From Alcanivoracaceae bacterium (GTDB taxonomy: Bacteria > Pseudomonadota > Gammaproteobacteria > Pseudomonadales > Alcanivoracaceae): a stretch of DNA of 64,000 bases. A program made the translations under genes and the position numbers. Shown piece after piece: positions 28,131 through 39,033 of the stretch; the first letter of the stretch is position 1, and every line of letters starts with the position of its first letter. The stretch spans positions 1-64,000 of the forward strand of contig JARGPN010000008.1 in NCBI GenBank assembly GCA_029213045.1, written 5' to 3'. Below the pieces are notes generated by a model. That model was not told the origin of the DNA and made no database searches. It worked only from the letters and a program-made list of their open reading frames with translations.

Positions 28131-29693
28131 CTAAGCATTTCTGATGCGCAGGGGTTCTTCCATTAGCTCATTGAGGAACTGAGCAATGCGTTGCTCCATC
28201 AGCGTTTCTGATTGTGCGTGCACACCATCAACAATGTACGTCATTATCGGTTCTGATTTGCCGCGCACGCGCATTGCGCCAGACTGACGGGCGCGAATGC
28301 GAGAGCTAATATTCGGCTGAACGGCTAGCGCCTGAGGCACGATCACTTCACCAGAGCCTGACATATTCGAAAGCCGTGAGGCCAGATTAACAGCGTCGCC
28401 AACTACCGTATATTGCATCCTGTCGCGCGATCCCAGGTTCCCCGCCAACATCGAGCCTGAGTTAATGCCGATTCTGAATTCTACGGTGGTAAGTCCGCGG
28501 CTTGCGCGATATAAATTCAGACGCTGAATCATGCGTTGAATCATTACGCCACAGCACATGCTGTGATATTCGTGCTCATCATCGTCCTCAGGCACACCGA
28601 AAACGATCATGGCGCAATCGCCCATGTATTTGTCGATGGTGCCGCGATAAAACGTTGCTGCCATGCTAATTGCATCAAAATAGCCATTGAGCATTTCGGC
28701 GACGGCGTCTGGGGCCATGTTTTCTGATAAGCGCGTAAAGCCGACGATATCGGCAAAGATGACGCTGCCTTCAACTTCGCGGCCGCCGAGAGAAATTTGG
28801 TCTAAATCCGCCATCATTTTACGTGCGACCGTGGGGCTGACGAAGCGCGATAAGACCTTTTCGACTTGGCCCTTTTCCAGCAAGCCGTGAGCCATGCTGT
28901 TGTAAGCATTGATGAGCAAGCCAATCTCGTCGTTGCGGCGATCATCAATACGGTAATTTAAATCGCCTGCGCTAATCGCGCTGGCGGCGGTAAGTAGCTG
29001 GTGAATGGGCGCAGAAAGCTTTCGACTGACCACGAAGGCGACCACGATGGCAATTAAGCTCATCAGAATAGTGGCAGTGACAATCGTGTCTTGGGCATTT
29101 TGCCGCGCTTCAATAATGCGCTTGCCAGACAGCGTGACAGCGGCATAGCCCGCCGTCATGTCGTTAATGGCGATGGGCACAAAATACGTGCTGAGTGGGC
29201 CGTCCGCTCCGTCCCAGCGCATTAATCTGCTGTCGGTGGTGATCAGTACGCGTTCCGGCGATTCACCGACAATTTGACTCAGGTTGCCGTCCCGATCGAA
29301 CAGGGCCGCACCACGTAAGGTGTCGCTGCGGACAAGGTTATTCAAAAGGACTTTGAGGTTGAAGCCGTCGTCAGCGAGTAACGGTTCACGAGCGGTGTCA
29401 GCCAGCTGTAAAGCAATAGTGGCGCCGAACCTATCGGCCTGCGTTTGCATGCGTTCAAGCTGGCTGTTCAAAACAATGCTGCCGAGCACCGCCATGCCGA
29501 CGATGATTAAGCCAGATATGGAGAGGCCAAGCTTCCACGCGACAGGGAAATAATCGGGCAAATAGGGGCTAAGGCCGTCACCGAAGTTCCGACTTACGTT
29601 GCGTAGTTTTTCTTTGAAACCAGCTGCCACGTCTGCCTTCCTGTGCTTGATCAGCCTTAGGGTATCCCTCAAAGCCTTGTCTGTAGCCAACAA
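28131..29693 (-). CDS. Membrane class III adenylate cyclase with HAMP domain
   Basis: 520 residues. TM helices at about 54-74 and 204-222 enclose a periplasmic sensor domain; a HAMP linker (about 223-275) joins the cyclase domain (about 305-490). Metal-binding Asp315 (FADIVGFTR) and Asp359 (DKYMGDC), the adenine-selecting Lys355 and Asp433 (VVGDAVNLASRL), and transition-state Asn436 and Arg440 are all present, so an active cAMP-forming enzyme is expected. The start is a TTG without a clear ribosome site; no ATG occurs before TM1, so the N-terminus is uncertain. It is probably co-transcribed with the downstream lipoprotein. Confidence 0.92.
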   Translation of the reverse strand: MLATDKALRDTLRLIKHRKADVAAGFKEKLRNVSRNFGDGLSPYLPDYFPVAWKLGLSISGLIIVGMAVLGSIVLNSQLERMQTQADRFGATIALQLADTAREPLLADDGFNLKVLLNNLVRSDTLRGAALFDRDGNLSQIVGESPERVLITTDSRLMRWDGADGPLSTYFVPIAINDMTAGYAAVTLSGKRIIEARQNAQDTIVTATILMSLIAIVVAFVVSRKLSAPIHQLLTAASAISAGDLNYRIDDRRNDEIGLLINAYNSMAHGLLEKGQVEKVLSRFVSPTVARKMMADLDQISLGGREVEGSVIFADIVGFTRLSENMAPDAVAEMLNGYFDAISMAATFYRGTIDKYMGDCAMIVFGVPEDDDEHEYHSMCCGVMIQRMIQRLNLYRASRGLTTVEFRIGINSGSMLAGNLGSRDRMQYTVVGDAVNLASRLSNMSGSGEVIVPQALAVQPNISSRIRARQSGAMRVRGKSEPIMTYIVDGVHAQSETLMEQRIAQFLNELMEEPLRIRNA

Positions 29694-29827
29694 TCGCCAA
29701 AAGGACGCTTTGACCCAGACGGTTCAAATAGTTTCCTAACTCGGAGGTATGGATCGCCTAAAGATAGCACTCCCTTTATATAAGGTATGCAGATGTGAAG
29801 CCTATCACAAAGCAGTGTCCGACAAGC

Positions 29828-30808
29828 TTATGTCATTAGCGGACGACCGTGATCTTCTCGGTCGGTCAGAATCTCAAATGCGGCGCCATGGCGGCTAGTC
29901 AGCGTCAGAGGGCTATGCCCCTCTCGCCTAAGAGTAAGTCGACAGGTGGCTATCTTGCTGTTCAGGCAGGTTTTATTGCCTTTAGAGGGGTTGTAGTAGG
30001 TCAGTGCAGCAAAGTGTCTGGGTGGAGCCTCAAAGCTCACGTCGAGTTCTGCATCGCCGTTTTCGGTATGCAGCCGCCAATCAAAAAATTGGTAGGCAGC
30101 CTTTGCACGAAACGCATTGCTCAGCGAGTTGAACAAATAATCTTTGCCCTCCAAACGCACGCACGCGAGTGTCATCCAAGGCGAAGGCAATGGACCGATC
30201 TTTACCCGAGCAGTAATGCATTCAAGAAATGCTTCCGGCATATTATCGAACGCGGCGACCTGGCCCCACGCGTATTGATCCGTATGGCGAGATCCCCAGT
30301 TATGATTTTCGCTGCCAAGCCAATTATCTAACGCAATAGTTTCGCCGTTCACGATTAACTCACCACTCAATGCTATTTGTGGTCGGCTGATAACGGATTT
30401 CGCGCGCGGCAACTTTCCGGCATATAAGTTTTCGGGTAAAAATAAAAGACTATTGTCATCACCCTGATAGTTGAGCGACCAGCGAATGCTATTGCCATTT
30501 AGCTTCGCTTCACCGCGCAATTGATGATCGCTTAAAACGCTTTTCCCGATCTGCGCATGGAGATGGCTATTGGAGAATTCACAAAGGTCTAATGGGAACT
30601 CTTCTTTCACGACGACGACGTTATCCTGATCGCCATCAAACCAAATAGCCCAAATCTCGCCGAGCGCATCACGTGACGTATCGCGCGGAATAAACCGCGT
30701 ATAGCGAATCCAGAACGCCTGCGGTTGATGAGGATGATTACCGCGCACGAACCAAGATTCGTAATGGCCATCAGGTCGGGCCGGCTGCGCACTGTGATAA
30801 GGAATCAC
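29828..30808 (-). CDS. Conserved unknown protein, CrtC/AttH-like (tentative)
   Basis: 326 residues with no signal peptide or membrane segment. It starts with GTG, whose bases overlap the stop of the upstream 150-residue gene (GTGA), so translation is coupled. Visible motifs are YESWFVRGNHP at residues 17-27, LFLPENLYAGKLPRAKS in the middle and a very characteristic WLGSENHNWGSRHTDQYAWGQ segment near 165. From memory this WG.HNWG pattern occurs in lipocalin-like proteins related to carotenoid hydratase CrtC and AttH, which bind or act on hydrophobic substrates. The assignment is a weak family guess and the substrate is unknown. Last gene of the minus-strand lipid cluster. Confidence 0.6.
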   Translation of the reverse strand: MIPYHSAQPARPDGHYESWFVRGNHPHQPQAFWIRYTRFIPRDTSRDALGEIWAIWFDGDQDNVVVVKEEFPLDLCEFSNSHLHAQIGKSVLSDHQLRGEAKLNGNSIRWSLNYQGDDNSLLFLPENLYAGKLPRAKSVISRPQIALSGELIVNGETIALDNWLGSENHNWGSRHTDQYAWGQVAAFDNMPEAFLECITARVKIGPLPSPWMTLACVRLEGKDYLFNSLSNAFRAKAAYQFFDWRLHTENGDAELDVSFEAPPRHFAALTYYNPSKGNKTCLNSKIATCRLTLRREGHSPLTLTSRHGAAFEILTDREDHGRPLMT

Positions 30809-31257
30809 TGGTGCAACTCCTGCATTGTGTAGGCGTTGTGTTCATCTACAAATCGAATACATTTAAAGGGAAAGGCCACGATGGAATCCAAGTAGGCTAC
30901 TTCGGCCATCCCGATCACTTGATCATCACGGGTGACGGTCATGGCGCAAGTGACCAGAGATCGAAGAAAACCATTTTTCCCGTAGGCTTTTTTTCCTGCG
31001 ATACGCAGAGCGCCGAGCTCTGAATGCTCAAGTTCCAGCCAATAGCTCGGGCCATCTAAGTGAAGCGTGAGTACGCCGTGACATGGCATTTCTTGATCAT
31101 TAATTAAGGCAATGCCGCGAAAAGCGCGCGGCGCTGAAAAACGTGAAATTTCACTTGTAAAGGCGCGAATAGAAAAAGAGAAATCCCGCGCGGAGCCCTC
31201 GCCGCTAAGGCGCAGCCAGCCGCTCATGCTTTCCTTTATTAACATACCCATTGCCAT
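30805..31257 (-). CDS. Small conserved protein of unknown function in lipid cluster
   Basis: 150 residues, no signal peptide or membrane helix. GAGG stands eight bases before the ATG. The core (FRGIALINDQEMPCHGVLTLHLDGPSYWLELEHSELGALRIAGKK) looks like a beta-rich domain. It faintly recalls the extra domain attached to some actinobacterial cholesterol-oxidase-like GMC proteins (pattern: short-lipid-like greek-key strands with GxKxxG), here as a separate protein directly after a GMC gene. That link is inference. It overlaps the next gene by four bases and lies 47 bases after the GMC gene. Confidence 0.6.
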   Translation of the reverse strand: MAMGMLIKESMSGWLRLSGEGSARDFSFSIRAFTSEISRFSAPRAFRGIALINDQEMPCHGVLTLHLDGPSYWLELEHSELGALRIAGKKAYGKNGFLRSLVTCAMTVTRDDQVIGMAEVAYLDSIVAFPFKCIRFVDEHNAYTMQELHQ

Positions 31258-31304
31258 AAGATGCGCCTCAATACTCTAGTTTTCTATCTAAAATAAAGAA
31301 AATA

Positions 31305-33248
31305 TTACTGCTGAATTCGATCGGCTAAGCGCGACGCTGCACGGGCAGCCATCGCCATAATGGTGACCTGAGGATTTGCACCTAGGCTAGAAGGCACGCT
31401 GCTCCCGTCCATGACGTACAGCCCTTGCCAGCCAAATACCTGATGCTCTGTATCACATACACCCTCTTCTTCATCTGGTGCAATACGTGCACTGCCCAGC
31501 GGGTGATATGCGCTGATAAGAAAGTCCTTTGGTGTTCGATTGCCTTGCAGCCACGCGGTAAGCTCCGATTCGCTTTTAATACGTGTGTGCTGGCGTACGC
31601 CGGGCACGATCACTTCCTTTGCGCCGGCGAGCAGGAAAATTTTCGCGAGGGTTTCAATGCCGACCTTAAATTGCGCGAAGTCTTCTTCATTAAGGTGATA
31701 GCGAAGCAATGGCAGGTCACGGTGGGGGCCTTTTTTAACACTACCTTCGCTGGTGTCTTTAATCATAAATCCGAAGTAGGCGGTGTGCTGATAGTCGTTG
31801 CAGAACTGCACAAACTCATCGCCGTAAAATGGATTGGAAAGACCGTGCCCGACAAAGGGAAGGGTGCCGCCTTCAAATATCAGCCCTTTTTCGGCAAAGT
31901 CTGCGATGCCAAAACCTTGCGGGATAGTGCTGCCGTTGGCGAAATCTTTGTCCGGAAAAATAGCGTTGACGACGCCACATGGATGGAGCGTGAGATGTCT
32001 GCCTAGGTGCGAATTTTTAACACCGTTTCTGGCCAGCAGTCCTGGTGTGAGGAGGGCGCCGGCGGCGACAATCACATTGCTAGTTTTAATATGGATGCGA
32101 ACTTTTTTTCCTGACTCTTTAACCGAGTGAAGAACTACGCCCTTGGTGGTTTGATTGGTGTGTAGAACTCTCTCTGCTCTAAAGCCGGTAAATAGAAAAG
32201 CGCCACGCTCAAGAGCGCGCGGAATATAGCTAACGTTGGTCGAGCGCTTGGCATCAGTTGGACATCCAAATTGACAGAGACCCTGACCATCGCACCCCGG
32301 TGCATTTCTGCGTAGCGCGTGCATTGCTGTTAAGCCAAGTTGTTTGCCGCCGTCGCGAATGACGTTGCCAATTTCTCCAACATAGCGTTCTTGCGCTTGT
32401 GTAACACCGAGCATTTCTTCAACGCCATCGAGCCACGGCGCCATTTCATTTTTTGTGAAGGCGGAGAGACCTTTTCGGCGCCACGCATCTAGCACTGCAT
32501 CAGGCGTGCGCATGCAGGTGCCGGAGTTAATGGTAGTTGTACCGCCAACGTTGCGACCTATTGGAACAGGGATAACTGCATTGCCAAACGTCGCTGTGGC
32601 ACCCATGGCGCGATAAAGTTTTGGGACGACGTCTTGCAGACGTCCGCTAAAATCTTTGCGGGTGTAGTAGTTCCCTTCTTCGACGATCAATACCGCCAGC
32701 CCGCGGCTGGCGAGCTCGTATGCCGCAGCTGCCCCACCTGCGCCACTGCCAATGACCACAACGTCTGCTTCGAGCTGTTGGTCTTCCTCTAACTCTTCGG
32801 CGCGAGTAATTTGATGCTGCCATGGGAAGACTTCCACTTGGCTGGGTGCCGACACCGGCGCTCGGCCGACAACTTGTTTCTGCAACTCCTCATCGAAAAG
32901 CCATGCGGCTTTATACGGTGCTGCAAGGGCGCGCAGGACATGCCCGCTGAGGGGCTTTCCGGCGAGCGCATTGAGTAAGCGTTTTCTTTTCTCGAGGGGC
33001 AAGGCGCTAAATCGATTCCCGCTTAGCAGTGCTCGCGCTTCTAGCCAAAATAATGCGCTGTTAAGTGAAGCCTTAATAATGGGATGAGGGGCAAGCCATG
33101 TGTCTACTTGCGCGCAAACGGCGTGAATGTCTATATCGGCAGCGGGAATCATCGCCTCAACAAACGCAAAGGCGGTGCCTCGCGCCTTTTGGGTTGAGTG
33201 GCGAGGAGGCATCGAGCTGGCGTTGTCAGGTTTATTAGATTTTGACAT
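31305..33248 (-). CDS. GMC-family FAD-dependent alcohol oxidoreductase
   Basis: 647 residues. The FAD-binding Rossmann motif DVVVIGSGAGGAAAAYELASRG lies at about 163-185, followed by the glycine loop GRNVGGTTTINSGTCMRTPD. The C-terminal half has the catalytic-His segment AYHPLGSARI and the closing FAD contact GANPQVTIMAMAARAASRLADRI. Among GMC enzymes the layout, with a roughly 150-residue N-terminal extension, is like that of long-chain alcohol and cholesterol oxidases or dehydrogenases rather than choline dehydrogenase. Its natural substrate may be a fatty alcohol made by the neighbouring reductase or a sterol-like alcohol; this is inferred from context only. Confidence 0.88.
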   Translation of the reverse strand: MSKSNKPDNASSMPPRHSTQKARGTAFAFVEAMIPAADIDIHAVCAQVDTWLAPHPIIKASLNSALFWLEARALLSGNRFSALPLEKRKRLLNALAGKPLSGHVLRALAAPYKAAWLFDEELQKQVVGRAPVSAPSQVEVFPWQHQITRAEELEEDQQLEADVVVIGSGAGGAAAAYELASRGLAVLIVEEGNYYTRKDFSGRLQDVVPKLYRAMGATATFGNAVIPVPIGRNVGGTTTINSGTCMRTPDAVLDAWRRKGLSAFTKNEMAPWLDGVEEMLGVTQAQERYVGEIGNVIRDGGKQLGLTAMHALRRNAPGCDGQGLCQFGCPTDAKRSTNVSYIPRALERGAFLFTGFRAERVLHTNQTTKGVVLHSVKESGKKVRIHIKTSNVIVAAGALLTPGLLARNGVKNSHLGRHLTLHPCGVVNAIFPDKDFANGSTIPQGFGIADFAEKGLIFEGGTLPFVGHGLSNPFYGDEFVQFCNDYQHTAYFGFMIKDTSEGSVKKGPHRDLPLLRYHLNEEDFAQFKVGIETLAKIFLLAGAKEVIVPGVRQHTRIKSESELTAWLQGNRTPKDFLISAYHPLGSARIAPDEEEGVCDTEHQVFGWQGLYVMDGSSVPSSLGANPQVTIMAMAARAASRLADRIQQ

Positions 33249-33295
33249 GGATTAAGTGTAGCAACTTAATATTGTATTGCTTGTCTTGTGGTGCA

Positions 33296-33325
33296 CGCGC
33301 ACTTGCGTGTTTGGATAAGTGCGCG
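33296..33325. repeat. 9-bp G+C-rich inverted repeat between GMC and SDR genes
   Basis: CGCGCACTT (33296-33304) and AAGTGCGCG (33317-33325) are perfect complements with a 12-base loop, without a T run. It lies between the SDR stop and the GMC start and could stabilise or process the mRNA rather than end it. Confidence 0.5.
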
Positions 33326-33336
33326 CGCGGGCTGCT

Positions 33337-34305
33337 CTAATGCCTTTGGAGCGGTGTTATCGAGGCGCGCTTTCTCGCTTGACGCTCTTCGTCCAGTACG
33401 GTGACTTTGCTAAATGATTCCGGTGCAACCTGATATCCGATATTCATCAGGAATTCTGTCGTTCGAGGAACTAGGTAATTCATTCCCACAAATACCAATC
33501 CCGATGTCGGCACAATACGTTTCTGCCGGCGTACGATGGCGTTGCACAGCCACTGCGCCGCTTGCGCTTCAGTGAGAGCAGGAAAGCGATCATAGGCTTT
33601 TGTTGGTGCGATCATTGGAGTGCGTACAAGAGGGTAGTTGATTAGGGTGAAGTCGATGCCTTTATGCGCAAGTTCGTTTTGCGCGGCACTTGTCCAGCCT
33701 TCTAATGCGCATTTAGAGCCGAGATACGCTGAGAATCTCGGCACACCAGTTTGCACCCCAAGCGTAGAGATGTTGATGATGTGGCCATCACCGCGCTCGA
33801 TCATGCTCGGAATTAAATTCAAGGCTATCCGAATAGCGCCGAAATAATTTAATTGCATGGTGCGTTGAAAGTCGTGGAAGCGATCTACGGAAAACACAAC
33901 GGAGCGTCGGATCGAGCGGCCTGCATTATTAATCAAAATGTCGACGCGTCCGTGTTCGTCAATGACGCGGCGGCAAAGACGGTCGCAATCATCTAAATCG
34001 GAAATATCGCAGCGAATAGCAGAAGCCTTGCCTCCGTGATCACGAATGCTTTGTACCAGCTTGGTGAGTTTATCTTCGGTTCTCGCCGTCATCACAACGA
34101 TGGCGCCCGCTGCGGCTAGCCGCTGAGCGGTAAATGCACCTATGCCGCTGCTAGCCCCAGTCACCAAAACAACCTTGCCTTTAACTCGCTGCTCTAGCGA
34201 AAGGCTTGGCGTCAGGGTGGACAGAAGCGTCCAGCGAAGCGATGCGCCGAGGCGCTTGAGGTGAGGTCTGATGTGCGGGCGTCGTAAGAGTGAAGGGGTT
34301 GCCAT
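33337..34305 (-). CDS. Short-chain dehydrogenase, copy of the reductase C-terminal domain
   Basis: 322 residues from the ATG at 34305, which has GGGAGAA seven bases upstream; the frame is open for 14 more codons without a ribosome site. A classical SDR: TGASSGIG cofactor loop, NNAGRS, catalytic Ser (INIST), and YLGSK as the YxxxK. Stretches such as NNAGRSIRRSVVFSVDRFHDF and RTMQLNYFGAIRIAL are almost identical to the C-terminal half of the next gene upstream (NNAGRSIRRSVVHTYERFHDF, RTMQLNYFGALRLIM), so the two arose by duplication. It should act on a fatty acyl or aldehyde/alcohol substrate with NAD(P)H. It is 137 bases downstream of the fatty acyl-CoA reductase. Confidence 0.9.
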   Translation of the reverse strand: MATPSLLRRPHIRPHLKRLGASLRWTLLSTLTPSLSLEQRVKGKVVLVTGASSGIGAFTAQRLAAAGAIVVMTARTEDKLTKLVQSIRDHGGKASAIRCDISDLDDCDRLCRRVIDEHGRVDILINNAGRSIRRSVVFSVDRFHDFQRTMQLNYFGAIRIALNLIPSMIERGDGHIINISTLGVQTGVPRFSAYLGSKCALEGWTSAAQNELAHKGIDFTLINYPLVRTPMIAPTKAYDRFPALTEAQAAQWLCNAIVRRQKRIVPTSGLVFVGMNYLVPRTTEFLMNIGYQVAPESFSKVTVLDEERQARKRASITPLQRH

Positions 34306-34412
34306 TTTACTGTTCTCCCAAGCTGTGGCGTTCAGCGTAGTCGCCATGTATTCGGTCAGTCTAACCCGAATCAGGTTGAGAGAAAGGAGGCGGTTGGGAC
34401 AGAAAGAGGGAC

Positions 34413-34435
34413 GGCGGGGTCAGGGCGACCCCGCC
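34413..34435. repeat. Strong G+C hairpin between SDR and reductase genes
   Basis: GGCGGGGTC (34413-34421) and GACCCCGCC (34427-34435) pair perfectly around a 5-base loop, 8 bases past the minus-strand stop of the reductase gene. No T run follows, so it may be a partial terminator or an mRNA-stabilising hairpin that sets different levels for the upstream and downstream genes of the cluster. Confidence 0.55.
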
Positions 34436-34442
34436 AGAACGG

Positions 34443-36452
34443 TTACCAGTGAATGCCTTTGAACAGGCGGGAGAATGCGGCTTGTTCGCGGCTGATACGC
34501 TTCGGCGTGCCTTCTTTCGAGCCAAGCGACGCAGCTGAATCTGAGAACAGCTTGTAACCGGTGTTCATAATCGTTTCGGTGACTTTTGGCGTCAGGAAGT
34601 GCATGACTTGGCCAAAAATGCCGAGGCCTGTTGCGACGCGTTTGGGGCGCCGCACAATCGCATCACAGATCATTTCCGCCGCTTGGTTTGGGCTGATGGT
34701 CGGCACGTGATTGTACAATTTTGTCGGTGCAATCATTGGCGTACGCACTAGCGGCATGTTGATTGTGGTGAAGCGAACGCCTTCATGCGCAAGCTCGGAT
34801 GCGGCGCAACGTGTAAAGGCATCCAGCGCCGCTTTTGAAGCAACATAGGCTGAAAAGCGCGGTGCGTTGGTGAGCACGCCAATGGAAGAAATGTTGATAA
34901 CGTGACCGTCACTACGTTCTGTCATGCTTGGCAGCAGGCCCATGATTAAACGCAGCGCTCCAAAATAGTTAAGTTGCATTGTGCGTTCAAAATCGTGGAA
35001 TCGTTCATAAGTATGAACCACTGAGCGGCGAATAGAACGGCCGGCATTGTTGACCAGCACATCAACTTGTCCGTGATCAGCGATAACTTGCTTAATTAAA
35101 TTATCGACATCATCAAGGTGCGAAACGTCGCAGCTATAGGAGTAGGCGGTGCCGCCTAGTTGATCAATTTCATGCAGTGTTTGTTCAAGCTTTTCTTTAT
35201 TGCGCGCAACGACTAATACTTTGGCGCCGGCGCGGGCGAGTTTGATCGCGACAGATTTGCCGATGCCAGATGTCGCCCCGGTAATCAAAATAACTTTGCC
35301 AGTAACGTGTTGTTCAAGTGAATGAGACGGCTCACTTTCGTCTTCGCGTTCGTCTCGATCTGGGTCTAGGTGGTTCTCCCAATAATCCCAAAGGATCTGT
35401 GCGTAAGACTCTAACTCTGGCGCTTCAATGTTTGATCCTTCCAATGCCGCTTTGGCGTGTGAGTTATCGAACGTTGTCGGGTAAGTCAGAAAACGTAACG
35501 CGCCTTCCGGAATATCGAGGCCGTCTAATGCTTGATGCAGTAAAAACTTCGCGGGAGGCAAATTCGACATGCCTTTGCGTAGCACGCTAGGCACATTATC
35601 GAACAGGTTTGCATCGAACCGCACGGGCATTTTCGGTGCGTCAGCGACAGAGGCGAATGCGTTCATTACCTCGCCAACGCTGTAATGTTTATCAGCCGTC
35701 AGGTGGAAGCATTGACCATCTAAGTTCGGCTGATGGGCGATGTGATCGATGGCGTCTGCAACAAAGTCCACTGGGACAATATTGAACTTGCCGCCGTCTA
35801 TGCCAATCAGTGGAACCCACGGAGGTAGCATGTCGCCCAGTTTCTGAATCAATTTGAAAAAATAGTAGGGCCCGTCAATTTTATCCATTTCGCCATTTTC
35901 GGAATCGCCAACCACCATTGATGGACGGTAGATTCGGAAAGGGATGGGGCTCTCTTGTCGCACCAACGCTTCGGATTCGTGTTTGGTTTGCAGATAAGCG
36001 TTGGCCAACTCACCCGCTTCGTCAAACATATCTTCGTAGAACATGCCGTCAAATAATCCGGCGGCGGCAATGGAGCTGGTGTGGTGGAAGCAGGTTGCGC
36101 TTAGCTCTCCGGCGAGCTTCAGTGCGTTACGGGTGCCTTCGATATTGGTGTAGCGCTGCTGGTTTTCATCCGCTTCTAGATCGTAAATGGCGGCAAGATG
36201 AAAGAAATGTCCGATTTGATCGCGCAGGTCGTCCCGATCGCGTTTGCTGACACCGAGCAGCTTCTTCGTGAGGTCACCGTTAATGGCGATTAACCGGTCT
36301 TCGTTTACGCCAAGACGTTTGCGCATGCCATCAAGTTTGTATTCTGAGCCTGGGCGGATTAGCGCGAACACGCGCGAATCCTCTCGCTCTAATAAACGCG
36401 CAACTAAAAAACGACCGATAAAACCAGTGGCACCTGTGACGAAGTAGTTCAT
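34443..36452 (-). CDS. Two-domain fatty acyl-CoA reductase (fatty alcohol-forming, Marinobacter type)
   Basis: 669 residues from the ATG at 36452 (AAGGGG eight bases upstream). Residues 1 to about 370 are an extended SDR (MNYFVTGATGFIGRF Rossmann start; HHTSSIAAAG; YLQTK active site). Residues about 380-669 are a classical SDR (TGATSGIG, NNAGRSIRRS, YVASK). The whole sequence parallels the characterised Marinobacter fatty acyl-CoA reductase (Maqu_2507 type), which reduces acyl-CoA or acyl-ACP via bound aldehyde to fatty alcohol using NADPH, and mycobacterial AcrA1. Likely products are wax-ester or ether-lipid alcohols. No wax ester synthase is in the window. It is the first gene of the minus-strand cluster and is divergent from a FabR-like regulator. 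Confidence 0.9.
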   Translation of the reverse strand: MNYFVTGATGFIGRFLVARLLEREDSRVFALIRPGSEYKLDGMRKRLGVNEDRLIAINGDLTKKLLGVSKRDRDDLRDQIGHFFHLAAIYDLEADENQQRYTNIEGTRNALKLAGELSATCFHHTSSIAAAGLFDGMFYEDMFDEAGELANAYLQTKHESEALVRQESPIPFRIYRPSMVVGDSENGEMDKIDGPYYFFKLIQKLGDMLPPWVPLIGIDGGKFNIVPVDFVADAIDHIAHQPNLDGQCFHLTADKHYSVGEVMNAFASVADAPKMPVRFDANLFDNVPSVLRKGMSNLPPAKFLLHQALDGLDIPEGALRFLTYPTTFDNSHAKAALEGSNIEAPELESYAQILWDYWENHLDPDRDEREDESEPSHSLEQHVTGKVILITGATSGIGKSVAIKLARAGAKVLVVARNKEKLEQTLHEIDQLGGTAYSYSCDVSHLDDVDNLIKQVIADHGQVDVLVNNAGRSIRRSVVHTYERFHDFERTMQLNYFGALRLIMGLLPSMTERSDGHVINISSIGVLTNAPRFSAYVASKAALDAFTRCAASELAHEGVRFTTINMPLVRTPMIAPTKLYNHVPTISPNQAAEMICDAIVRRPKRVATGLGIFGQVMHFLTPKVTETIMNTGYKLFSDSAASLGSKEGTPKRISREQAAFSRLFKGIHW

Positions 36453-36844
36453 GGACGACCCCTTATTTGTAGCTTCCTGTTCATGATATGCGCCAGCCGG
36501 AGCTAGCATTCCAATTTATATAGGCGTCTTTCTAATTAGGGCTAACGACTTACTTTAACGCAACGTTCATCGAATACTTCCTAAGAGACGCGAGTAACGC
36601 AACACTTGTTGGCAATGCAGCGATCAATTGTTAGGGCGGCGGCGTTCTTGCAGTAAACCGCTCCTGTAATTATGACTAACAAGTGTGAGTTGAATTCTCT
36701 GCTTAAGCGTTTCCTCTGTCAACACGGAATAACGTATTAGGCAAAAAATTAGATTAATTGGCTTATTTTTACAGTATTCAGTGGCAGCATCATCCTGGTG
36801 TGCTTATAGTTCTGCAACTTACACGTGTATGTTGGAGTGATGTT
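36453..36844. other. Divergent regulatory region between reductase and TetR genes
   Basis: 392 bases without a credible gene. It holds AACACTTGTT (36601-36610) and its near-complement AACAAGTGTG (36678-36687), and CAACA-CT-TGTTG centred at 36605. It also has a possible -10 TATAGT (36805-36810) for the TetR gene and the palindrome listed separately. On the minus strand a TATATA stretch lies about 75 bases before the reductase start. The recurring ACACTTG/CAAGTGT half-sites may bind the regulator. Confidence 0.5.
36816..36833. promoter_or_regulatory. Candidate TetR-family operator
   Basis: AACTTACAC and GTGTATGTT form an 18-base palindrome with one mismatched pair. It stands six bases after a TATAGT -10 element and directly before the GGAG ribosome site of the FabR-like gene. 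That is the usual place for an autorepression operator. Confidence 0.5.
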
Positions 36845-37510
36845 ATGTCGTCGGTGAGGGCTCAGCGAAAAGCTGAAACGCGGCAGCGGATTCTTGATGC
36901 GGCGCTGGCGTTGCTAGCGTCAGGGCGAGGTATGGATAGCTTAGGACTCCGTGAGGTGGCGCGCGAAGTGGGTTTGGCCCCGCCATCGCTGTATAACCAC
37001 TTCCCAACAATGGACGACTTGGGGCTCGCGCTGATTGATCTGGCTTGTTATCGCCTGCGCTCAGTGATGCGCCAAGGTAGAAAACAGATGGTTGTTCGAG
37101 ATCCGTCTGCTGGAGTGCAGGACCTAGTTCACCGTTTTCTCGCTTATCTAGCTGAGTATGAGGGAGAGTTTCGGTTGTTGGTGCAGCAGCGCTTGGGGAA
37201 TACCGAGCGCTTTCGGCGGCGGATTCAACGTGAGCTGCAGCTTTTTCGTGAAGAGCTAGAGGAGGACGCGCGCGCGGTGGCTGAGTCGAGGGGGATGACC
37301 GACATGCATTACAGAGCTGCGTCAGAGGCGGCAGTGGCAGTGATATTCGGGTTCGGCATTATTGCCTTGGAGATGAGTCCTGCGGTTCGTCAGGCAGCAA
37401 TTCCTAGGGCGGTCATGGAGTTGAAAATGGTTTTTTTGGGTGGCCGCGCGCTCGCCGCAGGCGCTGAGTTAGGCGATGAATTAGTGCCTAAGACGATTAA
37501 ATTGAAGTAG
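36845..37510 (+). CDS. FabR/DesT-like TetR-family regulator
   Basis: 221 residues from the ATG at 36845 (GGAG eight bases upstream); an in-frame upstream extension of 29 codons lacks family similarity. The start SSVRAQRKAETRQRILDAAL, the helix-turn-helix SLGLREVAREVGLAPPSLYNHFPTMDDLGLALID and the end MELKMVFLGGR line up with E. coli FabR and Pseudomonas DesT, which sense acyl-CoA or acyl-ACP pools and control unsaturated fatty-acid genes. Divergent orientation to the fatty acyl-CoA reductase suggests it controls that cluster. Ligand and mode are inferred. Confidence 0.85.
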   Translation: MSSVRAQRKAETRQRILDAALALLASGRGMDSLGLREVAREVGLAPPSLYNHFPTMDDLGLALIDLACYRLRSVMRQGRKQMVVRDPSAGVQDLVHRFLAYLAEYEGEFRLLVQQRLGNTERFRRRIQRELQLFREELEEDARAVAESRGMTDMHYRAASEAAVAVIFGFGIIALEMSPAVRQAAIPRAVMELKMVFLGGRALAAGAELGDELVPKTIKLK

Positions 37511-38262: not shown

Positions 38263-38346
38263 CGCCATCTCCTTATTTTCAGTCATCATAGGCGACAGAT
38301 GTTTGCGTTGCTGTTGTGCAGCGCACGAACTCAAAAAGGAGTCAGT

Positions 38347-39033
38347 ATGACGGCAGCAACTATGACGCTTGAGCAGGCGTTAAACGAACGACGTTCAGTA
38401 CGCGGGTACACCGAGCAGCCGGTAACGCAAGATGTGATGAACGAGGTGTTCTCACTGGCTAACCTGGCCCCAAGTAATTGCAATATTCAGCCGTGGAAGG
38501 TGTTTGTCGCTTCCGGCGCCGTACGTGATGAGTTGCGTCGGCGAATGATGGAAAAGGTGATGGCGGGCGTTATGGTGAATCCAGACTTTGAGCATTTGCC
38601 TAGCTTTTCCGGTGTCTACCGGCAGCGCCAGGTGGATTGCGCGGTTGAACTGTACGGCAATATGGGAATTGGTCGCGACGATCGCGCCGGGCGGATGCGC
38701 GCAAACTTGCGCAACTTTGAGTTATTCGATGCCCCTCACGTGGCGTTTATTGGTATGGAAAAGACCTTTGGTGTGACCGTCGGCATGGATGTCGGTATGT
38801 ACATTCAGTCGTTGTTGCTGACCATGACTGCGTACGGTATAGGCTCATGCGCTCAGGGCAGCATGCGTTATTACCCCGACGATGTGCGCGAGATCTTCGG
38901 CGAGCCAGATACCACGGGCATTCTGTGTGGCATTAGCTTTGGCTACGAAGACAAAAGCGTGGCCGCTAACCGCACACGCGTAGGGCGTGCTCCGTTAGCC
39001 GAAAATGTGCAATTTCTCGACGCGCTCGAGTAA
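38347..39033 (+). CDS. Nitroreductase-family FMN oxidoreductase
   Basis: 228 residues from the ATG at 38347 (AAAAGGAG seven bases upstream). The FMN-binding opening (ERRSVRGYTEQPV) and LAPSNCNIQPWKVFVASG, and the later GIGSCAQGSMRYYPDDVREIFG, mark a nitroreductase-fold enzyme that reduces nitro compounds, quinones or similar acceptors with NAD(P)H. The natural substrate is unknown. Stands alone; the ABM protein gene follows under its own promoter. Confidence 0.9.
   Translation: MTAATMTLEQALNERRSVRGYTEQPVTQDVMNEVFSLANLAPSNCNIQPWKVFVASGAVRDELRRRMMEKVMAGVMVNPDFEHLPSFSGVYRQRQVDCAVELYGNMGIGRDDRAGRMRANLRNFELFDAPHVAFIGMEKTFGVTVGMDVGMYIQSLLLTMTAYGIGSCAQGSMRYYPDDVREIFGEPDTTGILCGISFGYEDKSVAANRTRVGRAPLAENVQFLDALE

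Follow-up and report, generated by a model that had tools for sequence, protein, structure and literature searches.

Fatty acyl-CoA reductases (FARs) of the family considered here provide the alcohols for wax esters (PMC10351704), and the single-domain protein FCR2 matches the C-terminal part of the two-domain FCR1 (PMC3522743). Characterised long-chain alcohol oxidases are mostly GMC proteins with alcohols of C6 and longer as substrates (PMC9299179), the AttH protein NE1406 is lipocalin-like and linked to lipids (PMC2954199), and the core of the FabR site in Salmonella is ACAnnTGTnnnnT (PMC4804515). Here, we analysed a stretch of 64,000 nucleotides (the window; positions 1 to 64,000 of contig JARGPN010000008.1, assembly GCA_029213045.1) from the 3.17-Mb genome of an Alcanivoracaceae bacterium. 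In it, five minus-strand genes for a FAR, a short-chain dehydrogenase/reductase (SDR), a GMC flavoprotein, a 150-residue protein (p150) and a protein of the AttH/CrtC fold (AttH-like) lie divergent to the gene of a TetR regulator. At this locus, the nearest relatives that bear a name belong to Alcanivorax and other Alcanivoracaceae. Among the matches listed from open-licence papers in PubMed Central, no title or abstract start describes the gene set.

The comparison of this locus with other genomes reveals two units, the TetR/FAR locus and a separable trio of GMC, p150 and AttH-like genes. All six open reading frames (ORFs) lie where a preliminary description of this DNA had placed them, on the strands it gave; the gaps are 95, 88 and 47 bases from FAR towards the AttH-like gene, followed by a 4-base overlap between p150 and the AttH-like gene. 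The gene identities it proposed, including a FAR of the fatty-alcohol type, agree with our profile scans, and its FabR-like regulator indeed has FabR as best match and predicted operators beside its gene. Moreover, the two proteins to which it could assign no function are still without one; the AttH-like protein has sub-threshold hits only and p150 none. It had also proposed a search for co-occurrence, with genes that are never neighbours as the result that would speak against a cluster; this search was run, and in 21 of 25 genomes FAR and GMC proved to be no more than 7.1 kb apart, the other four having them on separate contigs.

Our counts in 46 genomes of the family cover FAR, GMC and AttH. 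FAR is present in 45 of them (E <= 1e-150) and AttH in 25, while GMC is found at E <= 1e-80 in 27 genomes, 25 of which carry a copy above 500 bits; six copies from six genomes (271.6-278.8 bits, 35-36% identity) were counted as paralogues. The 25 genomes with a strong GMC match and the 25 with AttH are identical sets, and the gene order is kept. Where FAR and GMC share a contig (21 of 25 genomes), they are on the same strand and 0.25-7.1 kb apart, nine of these genomes having them directly next to each other with a gap of at most 0.42 kb; the four genomes with separate contigs are G602, G589, G604 and G596.

More widely, a search of genome contigs with the AttH alignment gave 96 relatives, the best 80 of which were analysed; many of these loci end at contig ends. 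Among the best 80, a GMC gene lies nearby on the same strand in 43 loci, and p150 accompanies 35 of these 43 (36 of 80 overall). FAR occurs in 15 of the 80 loci, every one with GMC. Furthermore, p150 is fused to both of its neighbours. It shares one frame with GMC in L040, from a genome that is 75% complete and with a frame that stops within GMC, and forms one 470-residue protein with AttH in L050, a metagenome-assembled genome of Fluviicoccus. In Streptomyces chartreusis (L127), which was found only through the similarity of its GMC to that of the window (34.5%), a p150-AttH fusion is encoded directly upstream of GMC and overlaps a GntR-like gene (named by eye); in a small search, the three parts scored E 7e-9 (p150), 6.6e-17 (AttH) and 9e-110 (GMC). 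That p150 is fused to one partner in some genomes and to the other elsewhere is the best indication of a joint action of the three proteins, and the trio is well supported as a unit. Among plasmids, GMC was found in 14 records (best 34.5%) and AttH in none at E 1e-3. In gene order and names, the arrangement in L044 and L127 resembles Rv0494-Rv0493c-Rv0492c of Mycobacterium tuberculosis, which are presumably GntR, AttH-like and GMC neighbours. No FAR is known in that region. The operon rv0492c-rv0493c has been named previously (PMC10100808).

The p150 protein has no Pfam or NCBIfam family in profile scans and no relative in the PDB by sequence search; when 32 aligned members were compared with Pfam, one match at E 0.034 appeared. 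Its model is mostly beta (mean predicted local distance difference test score, pLDDT, 83) and resembles a small barrel, and Foldseek found nothing in the PDB at E <= 0.001 (best 7.5e-3). In VIA-align, the rows up to Z 10.4 are an erythrocruorin linker, avidins and designed barrels, which we read as small beta-barrels and not as kin. Likewise, a relationship between p150 and AttH was rejected (profile comparison probability 4.7). Some of the eight GMC-AttH loci that have no p150 match encode an ETMSG protein: in Hahella (L073) and Kangiellaceae (L118), a protein with an FSETMSG motif and a signal-like start (by eye) is encoded between GMC and AttH, and the GMC itself has a Tat-like (twin-arginine) start, the TAT_signal match being slightly under cut-off in L073. 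A comparable ETMSG frame follows directly after GMC in two Massilia loci (L092, L113), and on an Arthrobacter plasmid (L128:5868-8663) GMC carries a C-terminal ETMSG domain, with Pfam matching the flavoprotein part only. The L073 ETMSG protein was found in one plasmid record. Profile comparison of p150 with five exported ETMSG proteins gave E 2.1e-5 and probability 77 over 91 columns (hhalign), and single hidden Markov model scores were weak (E 0.0097 to 1.7), so that p150 and the exported ETMSG proteins are likely, though not certainly, kin. In a survey in which 10 candidates were scored in many genomes, p150 was present in at least two of 398 genomes of the phylum, the window's own included. 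In a sample of 194 genomes of the order, again with the window's genome, p150 was found in 11 and AttH in 12, with 10 shared; p150 stands alone in G126 and AttH alone in G062 and G119.

Table 1. Genes and predicted regulatory sites at the locus, in positions of the window.
Feature	Position	Strand	Basis
AttH/CrtC-fold protein, 326 amino acids (aa), GTG start	29828..30808	-	ORF list, profile scan, AlphaFold model, structure match
p150, 150 aa, predicted beta-barrel, probable partner of GMC and AttH-like	30805..31257	-	Profile scans, model, fusions
GMC flavoprotein, 647 aa, N-terminal extension of ~155 aa	31305..33248	-	Pfam, alignment of 11 relatives
SDR, 336 aa, free relative of the FAR C-terminal domain	33337..34347	-	Profile scan, 56% identity
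FAR, two-domain fatty acyl-CoA reductase, 669 aa, PRK07201	34443..36452 (ORF from 36509)	-	NCBIfam match
Third ACANNTGT core, poor palindrome; minus strand fits ACAnnTGTnnnnT	36602..36609		Pattern search
Operator 1, predicted, ACTAACAAGTGTGAGT, just downstream of the FAR-side -10	36675..36690		Pattern search
Promoter-like site towards FAR, TTGACA-17-GAGAAT	36694..36722	-	Consensus match only
Promoter-like site towards TetR, GTGGCA-18-TATAGT	36781..36810	+	Consensus match only
Operator 2, predicted, ACTTACACGTGTATGT, flanked by the promoter-like site and the ribosome-binding site of TetR	36817..36832		Pattern search
FabR/DesT-like TetR regulator, 221 aa	36845..37510 (ORF from TTG 36758)	+	NCBIfam, start re-assigned

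The GMC protein exceeds the Pfam cut-offs for GMC_oxred_N (167.3 bits) and GMC_oxred_C (74.6 bits). In an alignment of 11 relatives, its FAD-motif glycines G167, G169 and G172 as well as His582 and Asn625 are invariant, the latter two being what we take to be the active-site pair. Among solved structures, choline oxidases are nearest to it in sequence (E 4e-24). The protein would be expected to oxidise a hydroxyl of a long-chain lipid. The N-terminal extension gave no match in a Pfam scan. Gluconate_2-dh3 was considered for it and is unproven, as Pfam shows nothing and a profile against the Alteromonas subunit reached just E 0.11. We also rejected the best NCBIfam hit of the whole protein, cholesterol oxidase ChoxAB (NF058674), with 98 bits against a cut-off of 850.

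For the AttH-like protein, the AlphaFold model (pLDDT 95.9) superimposes on AttH NE1406 (2ich_B) with Z 25.3 and a root-mean-square deviation of 3.3 over 275 aligned residues, followed by fungal [4+2] cyclases (Z 23-24), kievitone hydratase (22.9) and 25-phosphosteroid lyase (18.8-19.3). The protein is predicted to be an enzyme of the (de)hydratase, lyase or cyclase type or a lipid-binding double barrel; the names of its relatives point to hydration, elimination or cyclisation, and non-redox chemistry is proposed for it. Its residues Y16, E17, K137, H169, N170 and Y179 are invariant. Two family assignments were rejected: Tocopherol_cycl (PF14249; 17.2 bits against a cut-off of 26.6, with 24.5 for the relative in L097) and the Rv3169 family (NF053593; 17.4 bits against 150), which 32 of 50 members of the AttH alignment match at E <= 0.01 (best 1.4e-8). 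The same AttH subfamily, with the motif GHYESYFLRANHP ... SENHNWG, is encoded without a nearby GMC in other phyla, in L097 and L102 (Desulfatibacillum), L081, L084 and L091 (Chloroflexota) and L095 and L101 (Spirochaetota). The Desulfatibacillum gene adjoins an acyl-CoA-synthetase-like gene (by eye), and in two further loci (L108:9109-10470, L110:10973-12289) an SDR of ~440-450 residues follows directly after the AttH gene. Inspection by eye of 14 loci with AttH but no GMC showed no shared partner among the neighbours.

Over residues 20-688 of its ORF, FAR matches PRK07201 in full length (model 1-657) with 944.6 bits, well over the cut-off of 549, and both NAD_binding_4 and adh_short exceed their Pfam cut-offs. 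Marinobacter Maqu_2507 and mycobacterial FCR1 presumably are of this type as well. FAR probably reduces acyl-CoA to fatty aldehyde or alcohol, and with the family profile starting at residue 20 of the ORF, its start is probably the ATG at 36452 instead of 36509. The SDR exceeds the Pfam cut-off for adh_short, is identical to the FAR C-terminal domain at 56% of positions across 265 residues and reaches 318 bits against PRK05866, under the cut-off of 368. For wax ester synthase/diacylglycerol acyltransferase (WS/DGAT), the genome holds one WS_DGAT_cat gene, on a different contig.

In the 20 FAR loci that we fetched from the family, the gene order is TetR and FAR, followed in some loci by SDR, in some by the trio, and usually by an adenylate-cyclase gene (28131-29693 in the window), which was not seen in L150 and lies beyond the end of L151. 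In L138 (G599), from the window's own genus, TetR, FAR and SDR are followed straight by the cyclase gene, with no trio. SDR is present in three of the 15 trio-less loci and missing from other loci with the trio, while TetR is found at 15 of the 20 loci (all five that have the trio and 10 of the 15 that lack it). Depending on the genome, the slot before the cyclase gene holds a transposase-like, penicillin-acylase-like, beta-lactamase-like, YcaO-like or epoxide-hydrolase-like gene (by eye). In the AttH tree, 17 rows labelled Alcanivoracaceae fall inside one set of 21 (100/99), four rows of which are labelled otherwise. Because the AttH proteins of the family group together in this way, a recent mobile insertion is unsupported as the cause of the patchy trio, though L152 has a transposase-like gene (by eye) in this slot. 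On the other side of the locus, there is a nitroreductase gene near TetR (38299-39033), and 17 of the 20 family loci have retained it close to FAR.

The regulator probably is a FabR-like paralogue that serves the FAR locus. Two other genes of the genome (G000:C6:122417-123004 and C11:158537-159166) exceed the FabR cut-off, so that together with the gene at this locus there are at least three FabR-like regulators. The start of the regulator at this locus is probably not TTG 36758 but ATG 36845, which has GGAG ahead of it, the FabR profile beginning at residue 31 of the ORF. An unguided palindrome search of the intergenic regions between TetR and FAR yielded sites with the core ACANNTGT (ACAnnTGT). 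In this survey, 26 of 36 loci were usable, the remaining 10 being without a TetR or FAR match in the stretch. All 26 regions contain at least two cores, compared with 2.2% of random, mostly coding segments of equal length from these loci. Near-perfect palindromes (at least 7 of 9) were found in 19 of the 26 regions (21 sites), whereas 200 first-order Markov randomisations gave an expectation of 0.07. These tests are not independent, because related regions are being compared and at least one genome contributes twice. The two main predicted operators of the window both sit just downstream of a promoter-like -10; the promoter matches themselves are weak evidence, since the region has four and its shuffles 7.4. 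Allowing at most one mismatch, the long operator pattern occurs at only two places in the whole genome, both at this locus, and since a reversed control pattern occurs four times per strand, it is the position of these sites and not their number that matters. We infer that TetR binds ACAnnTGT sites at both divergent promoter-like sites.

Our tentative preference, held at rather less than even probability, is for an acyl-responsive operon that makes a fatty alcohol or aldehyde, which is then processed by a flavoprotein and two barrel proteins. Here, the FabR-family repressor would sense the acyl pool and, through the ACAnnTGT operators, repress its own gene and the divergent operon. FAR, helped or varied by the SDR, would produce fatty aldehyde and fatty alcohol from acyl-CoA. 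The GMC protein would oxidise a hydroxyl on a long-chain lipid, p150, bound to GMC and the AttH-like protein, would present or hold this lipid, and the AttH-fold protein would perform a non-redox step, such as hydration, elimination or cyclisation, on the same molecule. Judging solely by position and strand, the substrate of the trio may be the product of FAR. The product of the locus is possibly an unusual lipid.

Several observations weigh against this operon. If the alcohol-making reductase and the alcohol-oxidising flavoprotein of one operon worked on the same carbon, their combination would be futile. The regulator reaches 149.8 bits against FabR (NF008402), 1.2 short of the cut-off of 151, and a TetR match beside FAR is missing in five of the 20 fetched loci and in L054, which carries FAR and the trio. 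In the whole window, ACANNTGT was found nine times with 12.0 expected, only the clustering being unusual, and the 13-base ACAnnTGTnnnnT five times with 6.0 expected, four of the five matches falling within 36597-36833. The trio is absent from 20 of the 45 family genomes with FAR and, in other bacteria, stands by itself without FAR, so that neither depends on the other; since the SDR is also uncoupled from the trio, the single five-gene pathway of the preliminary description does not hold. In four of the 21 genomes with FAR and GMC on one contig (G601, G109, G595 and G593; L045/L153, L048, L152 and L154), the two are separated by opposite-strand genes, and there the trio cannot share the FAR transcript. 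Finally, the slot between FAR/SDR and the cyclase gene (28131-34443 in the window; L138-L157) is variable and also holds unrelated genes.

With FAR often alone, the trio often without FAR and the two parted in four genomes, it is nearly as likely that the trio is a passenger, namely a self-contained module in a variable slot that acts on another lipid, such as a sterol-like, terpenoid or hydroxy-lipid alcohol, and shares just the promoter or position of FAR. In addition to the trio-less FAR genomes, the four interrupted loci and the other occupants of the slot, 28 of the 43 GMC-AttH loci among the best 80 of 96 relatives have no FAR in the stretch, several of these stretches being short. Elsewhere, the trio is accompanied by GntR-like (L044, L127) or AraC-like (L073, L118) genes, named by eye. 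The cholesterol oxidase that is the best, if far sub-threshold, NCBIfam match of GMC and the steroid lyase among the AttH-fold relatives would also suit such a lipid. However, GMC is on the FAR strand and within 7.1 kb in all 21 family genomes with both on one contig, which, together with the single set formed by the Alcanivoracaceae AttH proteins, argues for an old placement that has been retained.

A catabolic role is unlikely. The trio would then oxidise long-chain alcohols or ketones derived from alkanes or waxes, and FAR and SDR, controlled by the same acyl-sensing repressor, would keep reducing power in balance, as a valve between storage and consumption. Alcanivorax are alkane degraders, and the hosts are of this kind. 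The genome has one WS/DGAT, and known long-chain alcohol oxidases are mostly GMC proteins acting on C6 and longer alcohols (PMC9299179). On the other hand, none of the six genes encodes an aldehyde dehydrogenase according to Pfam and NCBIfam scans, alcohol-producing and alcohol-consuming enzymes are adjacent, and 21 of the 46 family genomes lack the trio. An ordinary wax-ester supply in which only FAR matters and the remainder is neutral fits FAR in 45 of 46 genomes, the presence of WS/DGAT and a FAR family that feeds wax-ester alcohols (PMC10351704), but it is highly improbable given the conservation of GMC (mean column identity 62% in 11 relatives of the order) and AttH (47% in 50 rows spanning several phyla) and the existence of fusions.

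FAR and its use are known, and the regulator belongs, as a paralogue, to a known type; there is a credible chance that the trio represents a new lipid-modifying system. A more specific proposal, possible but somewhat doubtful, is an undescribed three-component lipid-modifying enzyme in which the GMC substrate would be passed by p150, of a new beta-barrel family ('ETMSG'), to the AttH-fold hydratase, lyase or cyclase. The enzyme of this locus and of Streptomyces would be cytosolic, that of Hahella and Kangiellaceae partly exported (a Tat-like GMC and an ETMSG protein with a signal-like start), and here it would be plugged into fatty-alcohol synthesis to give a new lipid. In the search for new lipid reactions, a conserved trio that includes a domain-less p150 family fused to two partners makes a good target. 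The conditions (acyl-chain state) and strains (for example Alcanivorax jadensis T9, locus L058) to examine are suggested by the FAR neighbourhood and the FabR-type sites, and the presence or absence of the trio at one syntenic locus, even between two members of one genus, provides natural controls.

Apart from p150, the components resemble described systems and depart from them. Like FabR/DesT regulators, the TetR protein has an ACAnnTGT core as in Salmonella FabR (PMC4804515), with a family match just below the cut-off; it is one of several paralogues, and its long-pattern sites are at the FAR locus alone. FAR is like the Maqu_2507/FCR1-type enzymes in its full-length PRK07201 match over the cut-off, whereas here a FabR-like regulator stands alongside, together with an extra free SDR resembling the C-terminal domain and with the trio, which 25 of 46 genomes have. 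Compared with Acr1/FCR2-type reductases, the SDR matches the C-terminal half of FAR as FCR2 does that of FCR1 (PMC3522743), but it misses the PRK05866 cut-off, and a conversion of acyl-CoA to aldehyde is putative. The AttH-like protein shares the whole-length fold of the AttH/CrtC calycin double barrels (NE1406, kievitone hydratase, the CghA/Fsa2 pericyclases and 25-phosphosteroid lyase; Z 18.8-25.3), while identity in the structure alignments is 8-14% and it has conserved residues of its own (GSENHNWG, HTDxYAWGQ). Lastly, the flavoprotein has the GMC domains and His/Asn pair of plant and fungal long-chain alcohol oxidases and of choline and cholesterol oxidases, but differs from them in its own N-terminal extension outside Pfam and in having p150 and the AttH-like protein as its probable partners.

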